Shown here: positions 44,839 through 51,423 of the stretch, in pieces
Layout of the letters: each line of letters begins with the position of its first letter
Numbering within the stretch: position 1 is the first letter of the stretch
Assembly: GCA_958295905.1 (NCBI GenBank)
Contig: OY282382.1
Location: 4,956,910 to 5,020,909, forward strand
Length of the DNA: 64,000 nt
Direction: 5' to 3'
From: an uncultured Vicinamibacterales bacterium
Lineage (GTDB): Bacteria; Acidobacteriota; Vicinamibacteria; Vicinamibacterales; UBA8438
The notes under the pieces: model-generated
What the model was told of the DNA's origin: nothing
Seen by the model: the letters and a program-made list of their open reading frames with translations, nothing else
Database searches by the model: none
Program-made: the position numbers and the translations under genes

Positions 44839-44868
44839 TTGACGCGGCGGGCCGTCGCGGGATACAGT
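44839..44868 (+). promoter_or_regulatory. Candidate promoter of the sulfur-assimilation operon
   Basis: TTGACG (44839-44844) and TACAGT (44863-44868) are separated by 18 bp. The expected start of transcription would be about 44875, two bases before the GTG of the Cys leader peptide, which would then be leaderless. Confidence 0.5.
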
Positions 44869-44876
44869 CTGGTGTC

Positions 44877-44957
44877 GTGACGTTGCGCACACGAACCGCC
44901 TGTTGTTGCTGCTGTTGTCCGGAGGCCGCCGAGGCCCCGGCGCTGACGGTCGTGTGA
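44877..44957 (+). CDS. Cysteine-rich leader peptide (attenuator)
   Basis: The 26-codon reading frame, from GTG, encodes MTLRTRTACCCCCCPEAAEA then PALTVV. The six consecutive Cys codons (TGT TGT TGC TGC TGT TGT) lie at 44901-44918. It stands upstream of the precorrin-2 dehydrogenase / siroheme / sulfite reductase operon, followed by an intrinsic terminator. A ribosome stalling at the Cys codons when cysteinyl-tRNA is scarce would leave GGCCCCGG (44933-44940) free to pair with CCGGGGCC (45016-45023) and block the terminator. There is no good ribosome site; the peptide may be leaderless. An in-frame longer start upstream is possible. Confidence 0.75.
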   Translation: MTLRTRTACCCCCCPEAAEAPALTVV

Positions 44958-45010
44958 GGTGATGCACAAACGCTGAAGTGAAGACCAGCAAGCACCAGCG
45001 CGAGAGACCG

Positions 45011-45043
45011 AAAGCCCGGGGCCACACGGCTCCGGGCTTTTTT
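45011..45043 (+). terminator. Intrinsic terminator acting as attenuator before the sulfur operon
   Basis: The GC-rich stem AAAGCCCGG-GGCC, loop ACAC, then GGC-CCGGGCTTT runs into TTTTTT. It lies 54-86 bp after the leader peptide stop and about 57 bp before the first operon gene. Its 5' arm includes the 8-bp sequence complementary to the leader peptide 3' region (antiterminator). Confidence 0.85.
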
Positions 45044-45099: not shown

Positions 45100-45867
45100 A
45101 TGACCGACACCCTCGTGGCTCCATCCCCCGTCGCTCCATCCCCCGACGACCTGATCGACCCCGGCCCTGCGTTCGAGACGGCGGCGCCGCCCGCATCGCC
45201 GCTCGAATGCAGCGGGGACTTTCACGGGCGGCCGGGCTCGACGGCCGGCGGCGGCAACGCGCCCGCCGCGGCGACGCCGCTGTTTCCGGCGTTCCTCAAG
45301 CTGAGGGACCGACCGGTGACGGTGGTCGGCGGCGGGCCGGTCGCCGCGTCGAAGCTCCGGGCGCTGCTTGATGCCGGGGCGGACGTGACCGTCGTGGCGC
45401 CGGAGGTCGCGGCCGAGATCACGGGAAGCGGCGTGGCCGTCCGTCGCCGGCCGTTTCGGGCCTCGGACCTCGACGGCGCATGGCTCGCGGTGGCGGCGGC
45501 GCCGCCGGAGGTCAATCGCGAGGTCGCGGCGGCGGCGGCGGCGCGGCGCCTGTTCGTCAACGCGGTGGATGATCCGGCGAACGCGAGCCTCTACCTCGGC
45601 GGGGTGGTCCGGCGGCGCGGGGTCACCGCGGCAATCTCGACCGACGGCCGGGCGCCGGCCCTGGCCGGGCTGATTCGGGAGGCGATAGAGGCGCTGCTGC
45701 CCGAGGACGAGGTGGGACGGTGGCTGGCCGCGGCGGAAGCGGAGCGGGCGGGATGGATCGCCGGCCGCGTGCCGATGGAACGGCGGCGGCCGTTGCTCGT
45801 GCGGGCGCTGGCCGCCCTCTACGGCGATCGGCCGGCGGCGGAAGAAGGCCGGGGGTCTGCGCCGTAG
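45100..45867 (+). CDS. Precorrin-2 dehydrogenase / sirohydrochlorin ferrochelatase (CysG N-terminal type)
   Basis: The 255-aa protein has a Rossmann fold with TVVGGGPVAASKLRALLDAG and the Met8/CysG-B phrase FVNAVDDPANASLYLGGVV, then ISTDGRAPALAGLIREAIEA. It oxidises precorrin-2 with NAD and inserts iron to give sirohaem for the downstream sulfite reductase. About 60 N-terminal residues are low complexity and may be mis-annotated. It is the first structural gene after the Cys attenuator. Confidence 0.88.
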   Translation: MTDTLVAPSPVAPSPDDLIDPGPAFETAAPPASPLECSGDFHGRPGSTAGGGNAPAAATPLFPAFLKLRDRPVTVVGGGPVAASKLRALLDAGADVTVVAPEVAAEITGSGVAVRRRPFRASDLDGAWLAVAAAPPEVNREVAAAAAARRLFVNAVDDPANASLYLGGVVRRRGVTAAISTDGRAPALAGLIREAIEALLPEDEVGRWLAAAEAERAGWIAGRVPMERRRPLLVRALAALYGDRPAAEEGRGSAP

Positions 45868-46092: not shown

Positions 46093-46953
46093 ATGAGACC
46101 TCGACCGCAGCAACCCGCCGCGCCCCCTTCGCGACCGGGTGCCGCCGTGACCGGCGACGGCCGGGGATCGGACCCGACCCCGGGATTCGTGTCGCTGGTC
46201 GGGGCGGGTCCAGGAGACCCCGACCTGCTGACGGTGCAGGCGGTGGACCGCCTGCGGAAGGCCGATCTGGTGCTGTACGACGCCCTCGTGGCGCCCGACG
46301 TCGTGGCCCTGGCGAGCCGGGCGCAGCGCTTCTGCGTGGGCAAGCGGGCGGGCCGCCGATCGGTGCGCCAGAACACCATCATCCGCCTCCTGGTCCGCGC
46401 CGCCCGCCGCGGGCGCCGCGTGGTCCGGCTGAAGGGCGGCGACCCCTACGTGCTGGGGCGGGGCGGCGAGGAAGCCCTGGCCCTGCGGAGCGCGGGCATC
46501 CGTTTCGAGGTCGTGCCGGGGCTGACCACCGCCGTCACCGCCCCCGCCCTGGCCGGGATCCCCTTGACCCATCGCAGCCTGGCCTCGGGGTTCGCCGTCG
46601 TGTCCGGACACGACGAATCGAGCTTCCGGCCGGTACTGAGCGCGCTGTCCCCCGGCTCGCTGACCGTCGTGGTGCTGATGGGGCTGGCCCGCCGCGCCGC
46701 GGTGGCGGCCTGCCTGCTCGACCGCGGCTGGCCGGCGGACACCGCGGCGGCCATCGTGTGCGCGACCGTCTCGCCGCGGACCCGCGCCTGGATCGGCACG
46801 CTGGGACAGCTCGGGACGGCCCCGCACCCGGCCGCCGATGGCGCCCCCGGCACCATCGTCATCGGCGGCGTCGTCGATCTGCACGCCGTGCTCGACGAGA
46901 CGAATCGGGACGCCGCGGGGGCGGCGGCGCGAGAGAGCTGGAGCTCACGATGA
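46093..46953 (+). CDS. cobA: Uroporphyrinogen-III C-methyltransferase
   Basis: The 286-aa protein has the SAM-dependent tetrapyrrole methylase motifs VGAGPGDPDLLTVQAVDRL, VRLKGGDPYVLGRGGEEALA and VPGLTTAVTAPALAGIPLTH. It makes precorrin-2 from uroporphyrinogen III for sirohaem. The stop overlaps the first ATG of a ladder of duplicated ATGACCTGG sequences that ends at the sulfite reductase start. Confidence 0.92.
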   Translation: MRPRPQQPAAPPSRPGAAVTGDGRGSDPTPGFVSLVGAGPGDPDLLTVQAVDRLRKADLVLYDALVAPDVVALASRAQRFCVGKRAGRRSVRQNTIIRLLVRAARRGRRVVRLKGGDPYVLGRGGEEALALRSAGIRFEVVPGLTTAVTAPALAGIPLTHRSLASGFAVVSGHDESSFRPVLSALSPGSLTVVVLMGLARRAAVAACLLDRGWPADTAAAIVCATVSPRTRAWIGTLGQLGTAPHPAADGAPGTIVIGGVVDLHAVLDETNRDAAGAAARESWSSR

Positions 46954-47252: not shown

Positions 47253-49529
47253 ATGACCTGGAAAGAGAAACTCGGCGACCGCATCCCGGCCGAGTCGGCG
47301 CGGGAGATCGACACCTTCGAGAACCAGATCGCCCTCAAGCGCCGGGACCGAATCGACGACAAGGTGTTCGCCGAGACCCGCCTGCGGCGCGGCGCCTACG
47401 GACAGCGCTACGACAACGGGCAACGGAACGACGGCAACGGGGTCAAGATGCTGCCGTTCCCCTCGAACGGCCGGACGAAGGGTCCCGACACGGTCTGGGA
47501 CGCCCCCGGCATGCAGCGGATCAAGATCCCGTTCGGCGGGGTGACCCCCGAGCAGATGGACACCCTCGCCGACCTCGCCGAGGAGTACAGCGACGGCATC
47601 TGCCACATCACCACGCGGCAGGACGTGCAACTCCACTTCGTCCACCTCGACGACACCCCGTCCCTCATGCGCCGGCTCGCGGCGGTCGGCATCACCACGC
47701 GGGAGGCGTGCGGCAACACCGTCCGCAACGTCACCGCCTGCCCGCTCGCCGGCGTCTGCCGCGACGAGACGTTCGACGTCACCCCCTACGCCCGGGCGTC
47801 GATGCGGTTCCTGCTCGGCCATCCCGACGCCCAGGACTTCGGCCGCAAGTTCAAGGTGGCCTTCTCGGGGTGCCGTCAACACGCGTGCGGCCTCGTCAAC
47901 ATGCACGACTTCGGGGCGATCGCGGTGACCCGGGAGACCGGCGGGGCCACGCAACGCGGGTTCGAGGTCCACGTCGGGGGCGGCCTCGGCGCGGTGCCCC
48001 ACGAGGCGCGGCTGTTCGATCCGTTCATGGCCGAGGCCGAGGTCCTCCCGACGCTGCAGGCGATCTCGCGGGTGTTCGCGCGGCTGGGCGAGAAACGCAA
48101 CCGGGCCCGCGCCCGCATCAAGTTCCTGGTCGCCCAGCTCGGCATCGACGAGTTCCGGCGGCTCGTGCAGGAGGAACGCCGGCGCCTGGCCCCCGACGCG
48201 CGCTGGACCGCCTATCTCGACGACCTGTCCTCCGCCGCCGAGCAGCCGCTGAAGAGCGGCGGGCCGCTCGACGGGGCGCCGGCCGAATCGAGCTTCGCGG
48301 CGTGGTCGCGCTCGAACGTTTACCGCCAGCGCCAGCCGGGATACGCGGTGGTGACGGTCAGCCTGCCCCTGGGCGACATCACCGGCGACCAGCTCCGGGG
48401 GCTGGCCGACGTCGCCCGCCGGTTCGTCGGCGACACGGTGCGCACCACCGTCGAGCAGAACATCGTGCTGCGGTGGGTGCGCGGGTCGGACCTGCCGGCG
48501 CTGCACCGCGAGCTCGACGCCCTCGGCCTCGCCCGGCCCGGCGCGCAGTCCATCGGCGACATCACCGCCTGTCCGGGCACGGACACCTGCAAGCTCGGGA
48601 TCGCCTCGTCGCGCGGACTCGCGGCCGAGCTCGAGCAACGGGTGCGGGGGCGGATGGACGCCCTCGACGACGCGGTCCGCAGCCTCCGCATCAAGATCAG
48701 CGGATGCTTCAACTCGTGCGGCCAGCACCACATCAGCGACTTGGGGTTCTACGGCGTGAGCCGGCACGTGCGGGGGCGGGTGGTGCCGCACTTCCAGGTG
48801 GTGCTCGGCGGCCAGTGGGTCGAGAACGCCGGGGCCTACGGGCTCGCGATCGGCGCGGTGCCGGCCCGCCGGATTCCGGAGGTGGTCGAGCGGATCACGA
48901 CCCGCTTCATTGAGGACCGCCGACCGGACGAGACGTTCCACGCGTTCACGGCGCGAATCGGCAAGCGGGCGCTGCGCGGCATGCTCCAAGACCTGATGCC
49001 GGTGCCCGACTACGAGACAAAGCCCGACTACTACCGCGACTGGGGCGATCCGCGCGAGTTCGGCATCGGCGACATGGGGGTCGGCGAGTGCGCCGGCGAG
49101 GTGGTGTCGCTGACCGAGTTCGACCTCGTCGGGGCCGAGAGCCAAGTGTTCGAAGCCCAGCTCGAGCTCGAAGCGGGGAACGCCGCGCAGGCCGACGGGC
49201 TGGCCTACGCGGCGATGCTCCAGGCGGCCCGGGGCCTGATCAAGACCGAGTTCATCGACATCCCGGACGACCCCGACCGCATCGTCGCCGAGTTCCGGAC
49301 ACGCTTCTTCGACACCGGGATCTTCTTCGATCGGTTCGCCGGCGGGAAGTTCGCCCAGTATCTGTTCCGGCGGCACGCCCGCTCCGGGCCGCCGGCCGGC
49401 GTCGACGCGGCCCGCCGGTCCATCGAGGAGGCCCAGCTCTTTCTGGAAGCCACCCACGCCTGTCAGGCGCGGCTGGCCGGTGCGCCGGCGCCGGCGGGCG
49501 CAGGCGCCGTTTCCGGGAGCCCCGCGTGA
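47253..49529 (+). CDS. Ferredoxin-type sulfite/nitrite reductase with C-terminal extension
   Basis: The 758-aa protein reduces sulfite (or nitrite) by six electrons using sirohaem and a 4Fe-4S cluster. The cluster motif is TACPGTDTCKLG (C-x5-C, about residue 441) and GCFNSCGQHH (C-x3-C, about 487). Unusually, the N-terminal half also keeps a Cys set at the equivalent place, TACPLAGVC (C-x5-C, about 165) and SGCRQHAC (C-x4-C, about 207). A helical C-terminal extension after about residue 610 (AAQADGLAYAAMLQAARGLI) resembles a HEPN-like or reductase accessory domain. Siroheme genes upstream and cysQ/sat elsewhere favour sulfite as substrate. It is coupled to the next gene by GTGA. Confidence 0.88.
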   Translation: MTWKEKLGDRIPAESAREIDTFENQIALKRRDRIDDKVFAETRLRRGAYGQRYDNGQRNDGNGVKMLPFPSNGRTKGPDTVWDAPGMQRIKIPFGGVTPEQMDTLADLAEEYSDGICHITTRQDVQLHFVHLDDTPSLMRRLAAVGITTREACGNTVRNVTACPLAGVCRDETFDVTPYARASMRFLLGHPDAQDFGRKFKVAFSGCRQHACGLVNMHDFGAIAVTRETGGATQRGFEVHVGGGLGAVPHEARLFDPFMAEAEVLPTLQAISRVFARLGEKRNRARARIKFLVAQLGIDEFRRLVQEERRRLAPDARWTAYLDDLSSAAEQPLKSGGPLDGAPAESSFAAWSRSNVYRQRQPGYAVVTVSLPLGDITGDQLRGLADVARRFVGDTVRTTVEQNIVLRWVRGSDLPALHRELDALGLARPGAQSIGDITACPGTDTCKLGIASSRGLAAELEQRVRGRMDALDDAVRSLRIKISGCFNSCGQHHISDLGFYGVSRHVRGRVVPHFQVVLGGQWVENAGAYGLAIGAVPARRIPEVVERITTRFIEDRRPDETFHAFTARIGKRALRGMLQDLMPVPDYETKPDYYRDWGDPREFGIGDMGVGECAGEVVSLTEFDLVGAESQVFEAQLELEAGNAAQADGLAYAAMLQAARGLIKTEFIDIPDDPDRIVAEFRTRFFDTGIFFDRFAGGKFAQYLFRRHARSGPPAGVDAARRSIEEAQLFLEATHACQARLAGAPAPAGAGAVSGSPA

Positions 49530-50409: not shown

Positions 50410-51423
50410 ATGCACGTCGAAACGCTGAGCATCTTCTGCGACGTGGTCCGCCACCAGAGCTTTTCGCGGGGCGCGCGGGCCAGCTCGGTCAGCCAGTCGG
50501 CGGCCAGCCAGGCGGTGCGGCAGCTCGAGAAGCACCTCGGCGCGCAGCTCATCGACCGGTCCAAGCGGCCGTGGCAGCTCACCCCGGAGGGCCGGCTGTT
50601 CTTCAAGGGCTGCCAGGAGCTCGTCGAGCGCTATCACGAGCTGGAAGACGCGGTGCGGCATCGACAGAACCCGTCGGGCCGGACGGTGCGGCTCGCGACC
50701 ATCTACTCCGTGGGCGTCCACCATCTGTCGCAATACGTGGACCGGTTCCGCGCCGCGGTCCCGGGGGCGGCGGTGGACCTGCAGTACATGCACCCCGCCG
50801 AGATCTGCGAGCAGGTCGCGAACGACCGGTGCGACCTCGGCCTGATGTCGTTCGCCACCCCCCGCCGCGAGCTCGCGGTCATCCCCTGGCAGCGGCAGGC
50901 GATGGTCGTGGCGTGCCCCCCCGCCCACCGGTTCGCGGCCCGCGCGGCCGAGCGCGGCGTGCGCCCGGCGGAGCTCGCGGCCGAGCGCTTCGTGGCGTTC
51001 GACCGGGGGCTGCCGGTGCGCCGGGCCATCGACCGGTTCCTGCGGCGCCACCGCGTCGAGGTGACGGTGACCGCCGAGTTCGACAACATCGAGACCATCA
51101 AGCAGGCGGTGGACGAGGAAGCGGGCATCGCGATCCTGCCCGAGCCGACGCTGCGCCGCGAGGTGCGCCGCGGCACCCTCGTGCAGGTGCCCCTCGTGCT
51201 GCCGGCGGGCGAGCCGCCGCTGGTGCGGCCCCTCAGCATCGTGCACCGCGGCAATCGGCGGCTGAACCCGGCCGTCACCGCCTTCATCGAGCTGCTCGCC
51301 GCCGGCGCGCCGGCGGCCGCGGCGGAGACGGCGGAACCCCGCCGGGCCGCGAGAGCCGTCGGGGGACGGCGACGGAACGCGGTCCGAACCGCGGGCGCCG
51401 ACCCACAGGGAGCGAACCCATGA
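50410..51423 (+). CDS. LysR-family transcriptional regulator
   Basis: The 337-aa protein has an N-terminal winged helix ([20 protein letters not shown], about residues 18-37, then [12 protein letters not shown]) and a LysR substrate-binding domain ([57 protein letters not shown]). The [10 protein letters not shown] phrase is CysB/Cbl-like. Placement between the sulfite reductase operon and gltB suggests it senses sulfur or nitrogen status. The stop overlaps the gltB start (ATGA), so regulator and glutamate synthase are co-translated. Confidence 0.9.

Follow-up and report, generated by a model that had tools for sequence, protein, structure and literature searches.

Organization of the Locus

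The window, a 64,000-nucleotide stretch of the genome of an uncultured Vicinamibacterales bacterium, carries a cluster of sulfur genes on its + strand. The first structural gene (45100–45867) encodes a precorrin-2 dehydrogenase of siroheme synthesis of the cysG N-terminal type (cysG-N; PF13241; TIGR01470 cysG_Nterm above cut-off). It is followed by genes encoding a uroporphyrinogen-III C-methyltransferase (SUMT, cobA/cysG-C, 46093–46953; PF00590; TIGR01469 above cut-off) and an assimilatory sulfite/nitrite reductase-type protein (SiR, 47253–49529; PF01077 and PF03460, with NirA/SiR-like models below equivalog cut-offs). The cluster ends with a gene for a LysR-type regulator (50410–51423; PF00126 and PF03466), which is possibly CysB-like and could supply a further layer of control.

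A promoter and a short open reading frame (ORF) lie upstream of these genes on the same strand. The promoter is of the sigma-70 type (−35 TTGACG at 44839–44844, −10 TACAGT at 44863–44868, spacer of 18) and is the only one detected by promoter scan between 44500 and 45400 (shuffles had a mean of 0.0). The leader peptide ORF (VTLRTRTACCCCCCPEAAEAPALTVV*, 44877–44957) starts with a GTG located 8 nt past the −10 box, lacks a Shine-Dalgarno motif, and encodes a peptide with homologs both within the genus and in other genera. Within it are six consecutive Cys codons, TGT TGT TGC TGC TGT TGT (44901–44918), which are the putative regulatory codons and are kept as TGY at the aligned positions of relatives. 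The TGYx6 pattern has two copies in the 6.3-Mb genome and that of the leader is the sole in-frame one; the second arises when a Leu-rich run of CTG codons, which probably encodes a signal peptide, is read out of frame.

Downstream of the Cys codons, four RNA segments can be recognized. Segment 1 (CCGGAGGCC, 44919–44927) is directly 3′ of the last Cys codon. Segment 2 (GGCCCCGGCGCTGACGGTC, 44933–44951) is still within the leader ORF and is the 5′ half of an antiterminator. Segment 3 (GACCGAAAGCCCGGGGCC, 45006–45023) is both the 3′ half of the antiterminator and the 5′ arm of an intrinsic terminator (45012–45043), the latter having a stem of 45012–45023/45028–45039, an ACAC loop, and a U run that extends to 45043. 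A terminator scanner gave no terminator at this site, but folding revealed the stem, which is GC-rich and 12–13 bp long. The original prediction had named the promoter, the GTG frame, the six Cys codons, the terminator, and the complementarity of GGCCCCGG (44933–44940) to an octamer inside the terminator, and all are present. The octamer CCGGGGCC (45016–45023) is an exact complement; the antiterminator extends, however, to about 16 bp, formed by GGCCCCGG-c-GCT-ga-CGGTC (44933–44951) with GACCG-aa-AGC-CCGGGGCC (45006–45023). Also overlooked was segment 1, which in folding is able to pair with GGCCCCGG. The longer antiterminator and the pairing of segment 1 together give a four-segment arrangement with mutually exclusive 1:2, 2:3, and 3:4 helices, like that of trp.

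Just 5′ of segment 3, a stretch like AAGCACCAGCGCGAG (44990–45005) is conserved in family members, and its GCGC part may lengthen the antiterminator via bases past segment 2. No Rfam family, including T-box, SAM, and other riboswitches as well as described leaders, scored above its gathering threshold in the window; the best matches below threshold span mainly the terminator.

Conservation and Gene Association in Vicinamibacteria

Leaders of this kind are conserved across the class. Among 26 loci of the family that were retrieved via the first structural gene, two from the same genus and several from other genera combine a Cys run of three to six codons with a short ORF and a terminator. A covariance model (R1) built from six leaders and run against 193 genomes of the class has a match at E ≤ 0.1 in 124, a count that takes in bare terminators. 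The 82 leaders with Cys-rich ORFs, out of 90 R1-match loci fetched, make up alignment A4. The leader in the window has six Cys codons and those of relatives mostly have two to six, which in three leaders (L057, L074, and L075) are interspersed rather than consecutive.

The genes that follow the leaders, assigned by marker searches with names checked using Pfam and NCBIfam, are those of sulfate assimilation or cysteine metabolism in 80 of 82 cases (cysG-N/SUMT/SiR, cysH, cysDN, cysK, or tauE). The remaining two leaders run into contig ends after 51 and 395 bases. The original prediction had proposed searching related genomes for Cys-run ORFs with terminators upstream of such genes, and the association it anticipated is what the alignment bears out. 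Conversely, none of the seven R1 matches that are without a Cys run precedes sulfate-assimilation or cysteine genes. These (L108, L109, L110, L111, L113, L114, and L115) are bare terminators, several of them behind the ends of groEL-like genes, and the other R1 matches in the window genome have no leader ORFs and fall on terminators or in coding sequence. Several genomes (e.g., G081, G157, G167, G168, and G169) have two or three leaders, each before a separate cys operon. Many relatives in the family have cysH directly behind the leader, unlike the window genome, in which the only match to the PAPS_reduct domain (L275, G000:C1:5996529-5997086) is far from the window.

Cys-run leaders with terminators were also observed before other types of genes. 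Four precede genes for redoxin-domain proteins (L250, L259, L261, and L269) and one precedes a gene for a 1-Cys peroxiredoxin (L267). Others are before genes for a PF03601 protein (L246), an NMT1-type ABC system (L264), and a RimK-like ATP-grasp protein (L257). Leaders at thiol-redox and transport genes suggest that the cysteine regulon is broader than sulfate assimilation.

The location of promoters relative to leader ORFs is likewise conserved. In 63 of 82 leaders, TTGAC is found 33–43 nt 5′ of an in-frame start codon, as compared to 2.8% of control positions, and in 48 of these 63 a sequence 5–10 nt from the start matches the −10 box in four or more of six bases. With a stricter −10 match (TANNNT), the leaderless spacing is found in only 33 of 82. 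A scan of start regions in the same set identified a Shine-Dalgarno-like motif in one leader. The spacing of TTGAC and the missing Shine-Dalgarno motifs predict that translation of the leader ORF starts on a leaderless transcript. Codon choice is also biased. The last two aligned Cys codons of the leaders are TGT in 140 cases and TGC in 11, whereas five genes of the window use TGC 32 times and TGT three times, about ten to one. The leaders therefore favor the rarer synonymous codon, which would fit a stalling site.

Covariation and Pairing of the Three Helices

All three helices show more covariation in A4 than expected from shuffled alignments. Scores are 0.356 versus 0.166 in shuffles for 3:4, 0.306 versus 0.139 for 1:2, and 0.165 versus 0.132 for 2:3, and in each case 0 of 500 shuffles reached the observed score. 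Because the structure used in fitting A4 comprised 1:2 and 3:4 and not 2:3, the counts for the former two are flattered and 2:3 is the fairer result; because the aligned sequences are related, the shuffle counts are not probabilities. Shifting the partner by one to three columns strongly lowers the score of each helix. The terminator stem is paired in 96.1% of cells over the 82 leaders and 11 of its 12 pairs have double-sided changes. In 1:2, the four inner pairs are formed in 97.5% of cells and all four have changed on both sides, whereas the outer pairs are not conserved (56.9% paired). The pairs 44925:44935, 44935:45021, and 45021:45030 each alternate between G-C and A-U types, a joint switching that is expected where one segment alternates between two partners. 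Further pair types in 2:3 are not exceptionally numerous relative to shuffles (144/500).

The 2:3 pairing was also assessed independently of the alignment by comparing own and permuted combinations of segments. The mean energy of pairing between a leader's own segments 2 and 3 is −32.7 kcal/mol, compared to −27.8 kcal/mol for permuted combinations (the best of 5,000 permutations was −29.3 kcal/mol) and −22.0 kcal/mol when segment 2 is shuffled.

These patterns support the original reading of the locus as an attenuator. That reading hinged in part on relatives keeping the Cys run and the alternative 2:3 pairing, and across the class both are kept, as are the terminator, the spacing of the promoter, and the association with sulfur genes. 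Both the antiterminator and the terminator pairings covary.

Folding With and Without a Ribosome

Simulated positions of a ribosome differ in their effect on the window leader. At equilibrium, the probability of the terminator is 0–0.28 if a ribosome occupies the Cys run, 0.70 if none is present, and 1.0 if a ribosome has reached the stop codon. For stalled states, equilibrium folding supports a switch for this leader only and is nondiscriminating in most leaders: the terminator is favored despite a stalled ribosome, and its probability is below 0.3 in only 11%. The switch must therefore depend on the order of folding. Prior to synthesis of segment 4, the 2:3 helix dominates, with a mean probability of 0.84 with a stalled ribosome and 0.75 without one. 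Since the early transcript prefers 2:3 over 1:2 even when ribosome-free, 1:2 has a less obvious role here than it does in trp.

Distribution Beyond the Class

A second covariance model (R2), run against 396 genomes of the phylum, showed that other families also have Cys leaders upstream of cysH and SiR (G321, G389, and G503), and it also matched the named acidobacterial loci L147 and L148. Separately, 80 sulfite reductase loci were scanned for a Cys run with a terminator, yielding 18 units on the gene strand and none on the other strand. Some are in Chloroflexi or Anaerolineae loci (L161, L197, L201 with two units, and L204). Antiterminators pair clearly in L148, L152, the second unit of L201, and an upstream unit of L204 (z of −2.5 to −3.6) and weakly in others. 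Two of the Chloroflexi loci (L201:1325-1600 and L204:3082-3330) apparently have two tandem Cys leaders with terminators before sulfur genes. Other Acidobacteriota appear to have similar units, with a weaker case for Chloroflexota; beyond the class, such units are to be taken only as leads.

Proposed Mechanism and Alternatives

We propose that the element is, very probably, an attenuator of transcription that acts through the ribosome and has charged tRNA-Cys as its signal. The transcript would begin at or beside the GTG, and a ribosome would load on the 5′ end once it emerges. When Cys-tRNA is ample, the ribosome is predicted to clear the six Cys codons and reach the stop codon just past segment 2. 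Segment 2 would then be covered, leaving segment 3 available to segment 4, and the resulting terminator would halt transcription 5′ of cysG-N. Under a shortage of Cys-tRNA, a ribosome that stalls toward the end of the Cys run would mask segment 1 and leave segment 2 open. The open segment would capture segment 3 before segment 4 exists, such that the terminator does not form and the siroheme and sulfite reductase genes are transcribed. Sequence and comparison establish the ORF, its Cys codons, the promoter, the three helices, their conservation through the class, and the association with sulfur genes; leaderless initiation, stalling at Cys codons, kinetic competition between helices, and the response to cysteine are the steps that we infer from this arrangement.

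The genetic features of the leaders bear on several other explanations. GC-rich sequences yield many complementary octamers, and a shuffled segment 2 still pairs with segment 3 at −22.0 kcal/mol, so a random Cys run could in principle lie close to an unrelated terminator. But such units are confined to the gene strand in the 80 sulfite reductase loci scanned, and conservation across many genera refutes a chance origin, to which we give next to no credence. Alternatively, the Cys-rich peptide could itself act, for instance in sensing metals or redox state, with the terminator being an ordinary one. Cys runs can bind metals, and some leaders stand before redoxin and peroxiredoxin genes. Yet the residues outside the Cys run track RNA pairing and differ widely between families, and an arm of the terminator covaries with the coding region, making an active peptide highly improbable.

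Two further explanations retain the Cys codons as the sensor. If attenuation were translational, a leaderless poly-Cys ORF would govern downstream translation and the hairpin would not be a functional terminator. Leaderless poly-Cys ORFs act in this manner in Mycobacterium smegmatis (Canestrari et al. 2020, according to PMC9031893 and PMC13236596). In the window, by contrast, a GC-rich hairpin with a U run is between the ORF and the gene, no other element is as well conserved as its stem or covaries as much, and the antiterminator overlaps an arm of the terminator rather than the start region of cysG-N, which is about 57 nt further on. Translational attenuation is very unlikely as a result. 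The second explanation is a variant of the attenuator model, in which the switch has two states and segment 1 has no part: a ribosome at the stop codon covers segment 2 and causes termination, while a stalled or absent ribosome allows 2:3 to form and transcription to read through. Pairing between segments 1 and 2 would then be an incidental consequence of segment 2 and of the coding sequence. The prevalence of 2:3 in early transcripts, even those free of ribosomes, and the lack of conservation in the outer pairs of 1:2 fit this variant, but the near-invariant pairing and two-sided changes of the inner four pairs do not; it is possible, though we think it the less probable form of the switch.

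At the scale of the class, we lean slightly toward a broader proposal for attenuators that respond to Cys-tRNA and combine a leaderless poly-Cys ORF with a terminator. In Vicinamibacteria, they would be the chief means of regulating sulfate assimilation by cysteine, acting class-wide on several operons and either replacing or working atop a protein regulator, with recurrence in other Acidobacteriota and Chloroflexota and a regulon that includes redoxin, peroxiredoxin, and sulfur-transport genes. The element would explain how sulfate assimilation is controlled in a major and largely uncultured lineage, and the covariance model can be used to annotate the regulon.

Comparison with Known Systems

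Attenuators that respond to amino acids are textbook cases. Those of enterobacterial trp and his operons have a leader peptide with regulatory codons and segments 1–4 that form mutually exclusive helices, 1:2 and 3:4 versus 2:3. The element described here shares with them a leader peptide with regulatory codons, a terminator, an antiterminator that excludes it, a 1:2 hairpin, and an association with genes for making the amino acid that is sensed. Unlike in trp and his, the amino acid is Cys, the leader ORF lacks a Shine-Dalgarno motif, and the antiterminator is a long, interrupted helix with its 5′ half in coding sequence.

As of a 2010 survey, functions were known for almost no acidobacterial attenuators (PMC2965389). 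Our literature search, which covered open-licence papers, found no description of the element in Acidobacteriota and few cysteine attenuators overall. The original prediction, that a terminator-coupled Cys leader in an acidobacterial-like genome would be a new case, stands for this phylum within that search, and sequence evidence, as far as it goes, agrees with the acidobacterial host, the predicted leaderless start, and the coupling to a terminator. But terminator coupling itself has a precedent in uORFC-8-2, located before cysS in Rhodobacterales, which has two Cys codons and an intrinsic terminator and for which ribosome-mediated attenuation was proposed (PMC8632094). Both have Cys codons in an upstream ORF followed by an intrinsic terminator. 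They differ in that uORFC-8-2 has an ATG start, is associated with cysS only, is limited to one alphaproteobacterial order, and has its Cys codons in the first stem (PMC8632094), whereas leaders of Vicinamibacteria mostly have three to six Cys codons and GTG or ATG starts predicted to be leaderless, have stems 3′ of the Cys run, and precede many sulfur operons, those of sulfate assimilation and not cysS.

Cys leader peptides without conserved terminators are found in actinobacteria (Seliverstov et al. 2005, PMC1262725), and mycobacteria have leaderless poly-Cys ORFs that are responsive to cysteine (Canestrari et al. 2020, Mol Microbiol 114:93) and are termed translational in PMC9031893 and PMC13236596. 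As far as these accounts describe them, they share with the leaders of Vicinamibacteria a short ORF with a Cys run, a leaderless start (predicted in the latter), a position before sulfate-assimilation genes, and cysteine supply as the signal. They differ in being translational and in lacking conserved terminators, whereas the element of Vicinamibacteria has an intrinsic terminator and a covarying antiterminator. What is new is the predicted leaderless, terminator-coupled design and its putative regulon of cys operons. This raises the question of whether ribosomes load on a leaderless mRNA quickly enough for the coupling to RNA polymerase that attenuation involves. If our interpretation is correct, the element unites two known designs, the leaderless poly-Cys ORF and attenuation by an intrinsic terminator.
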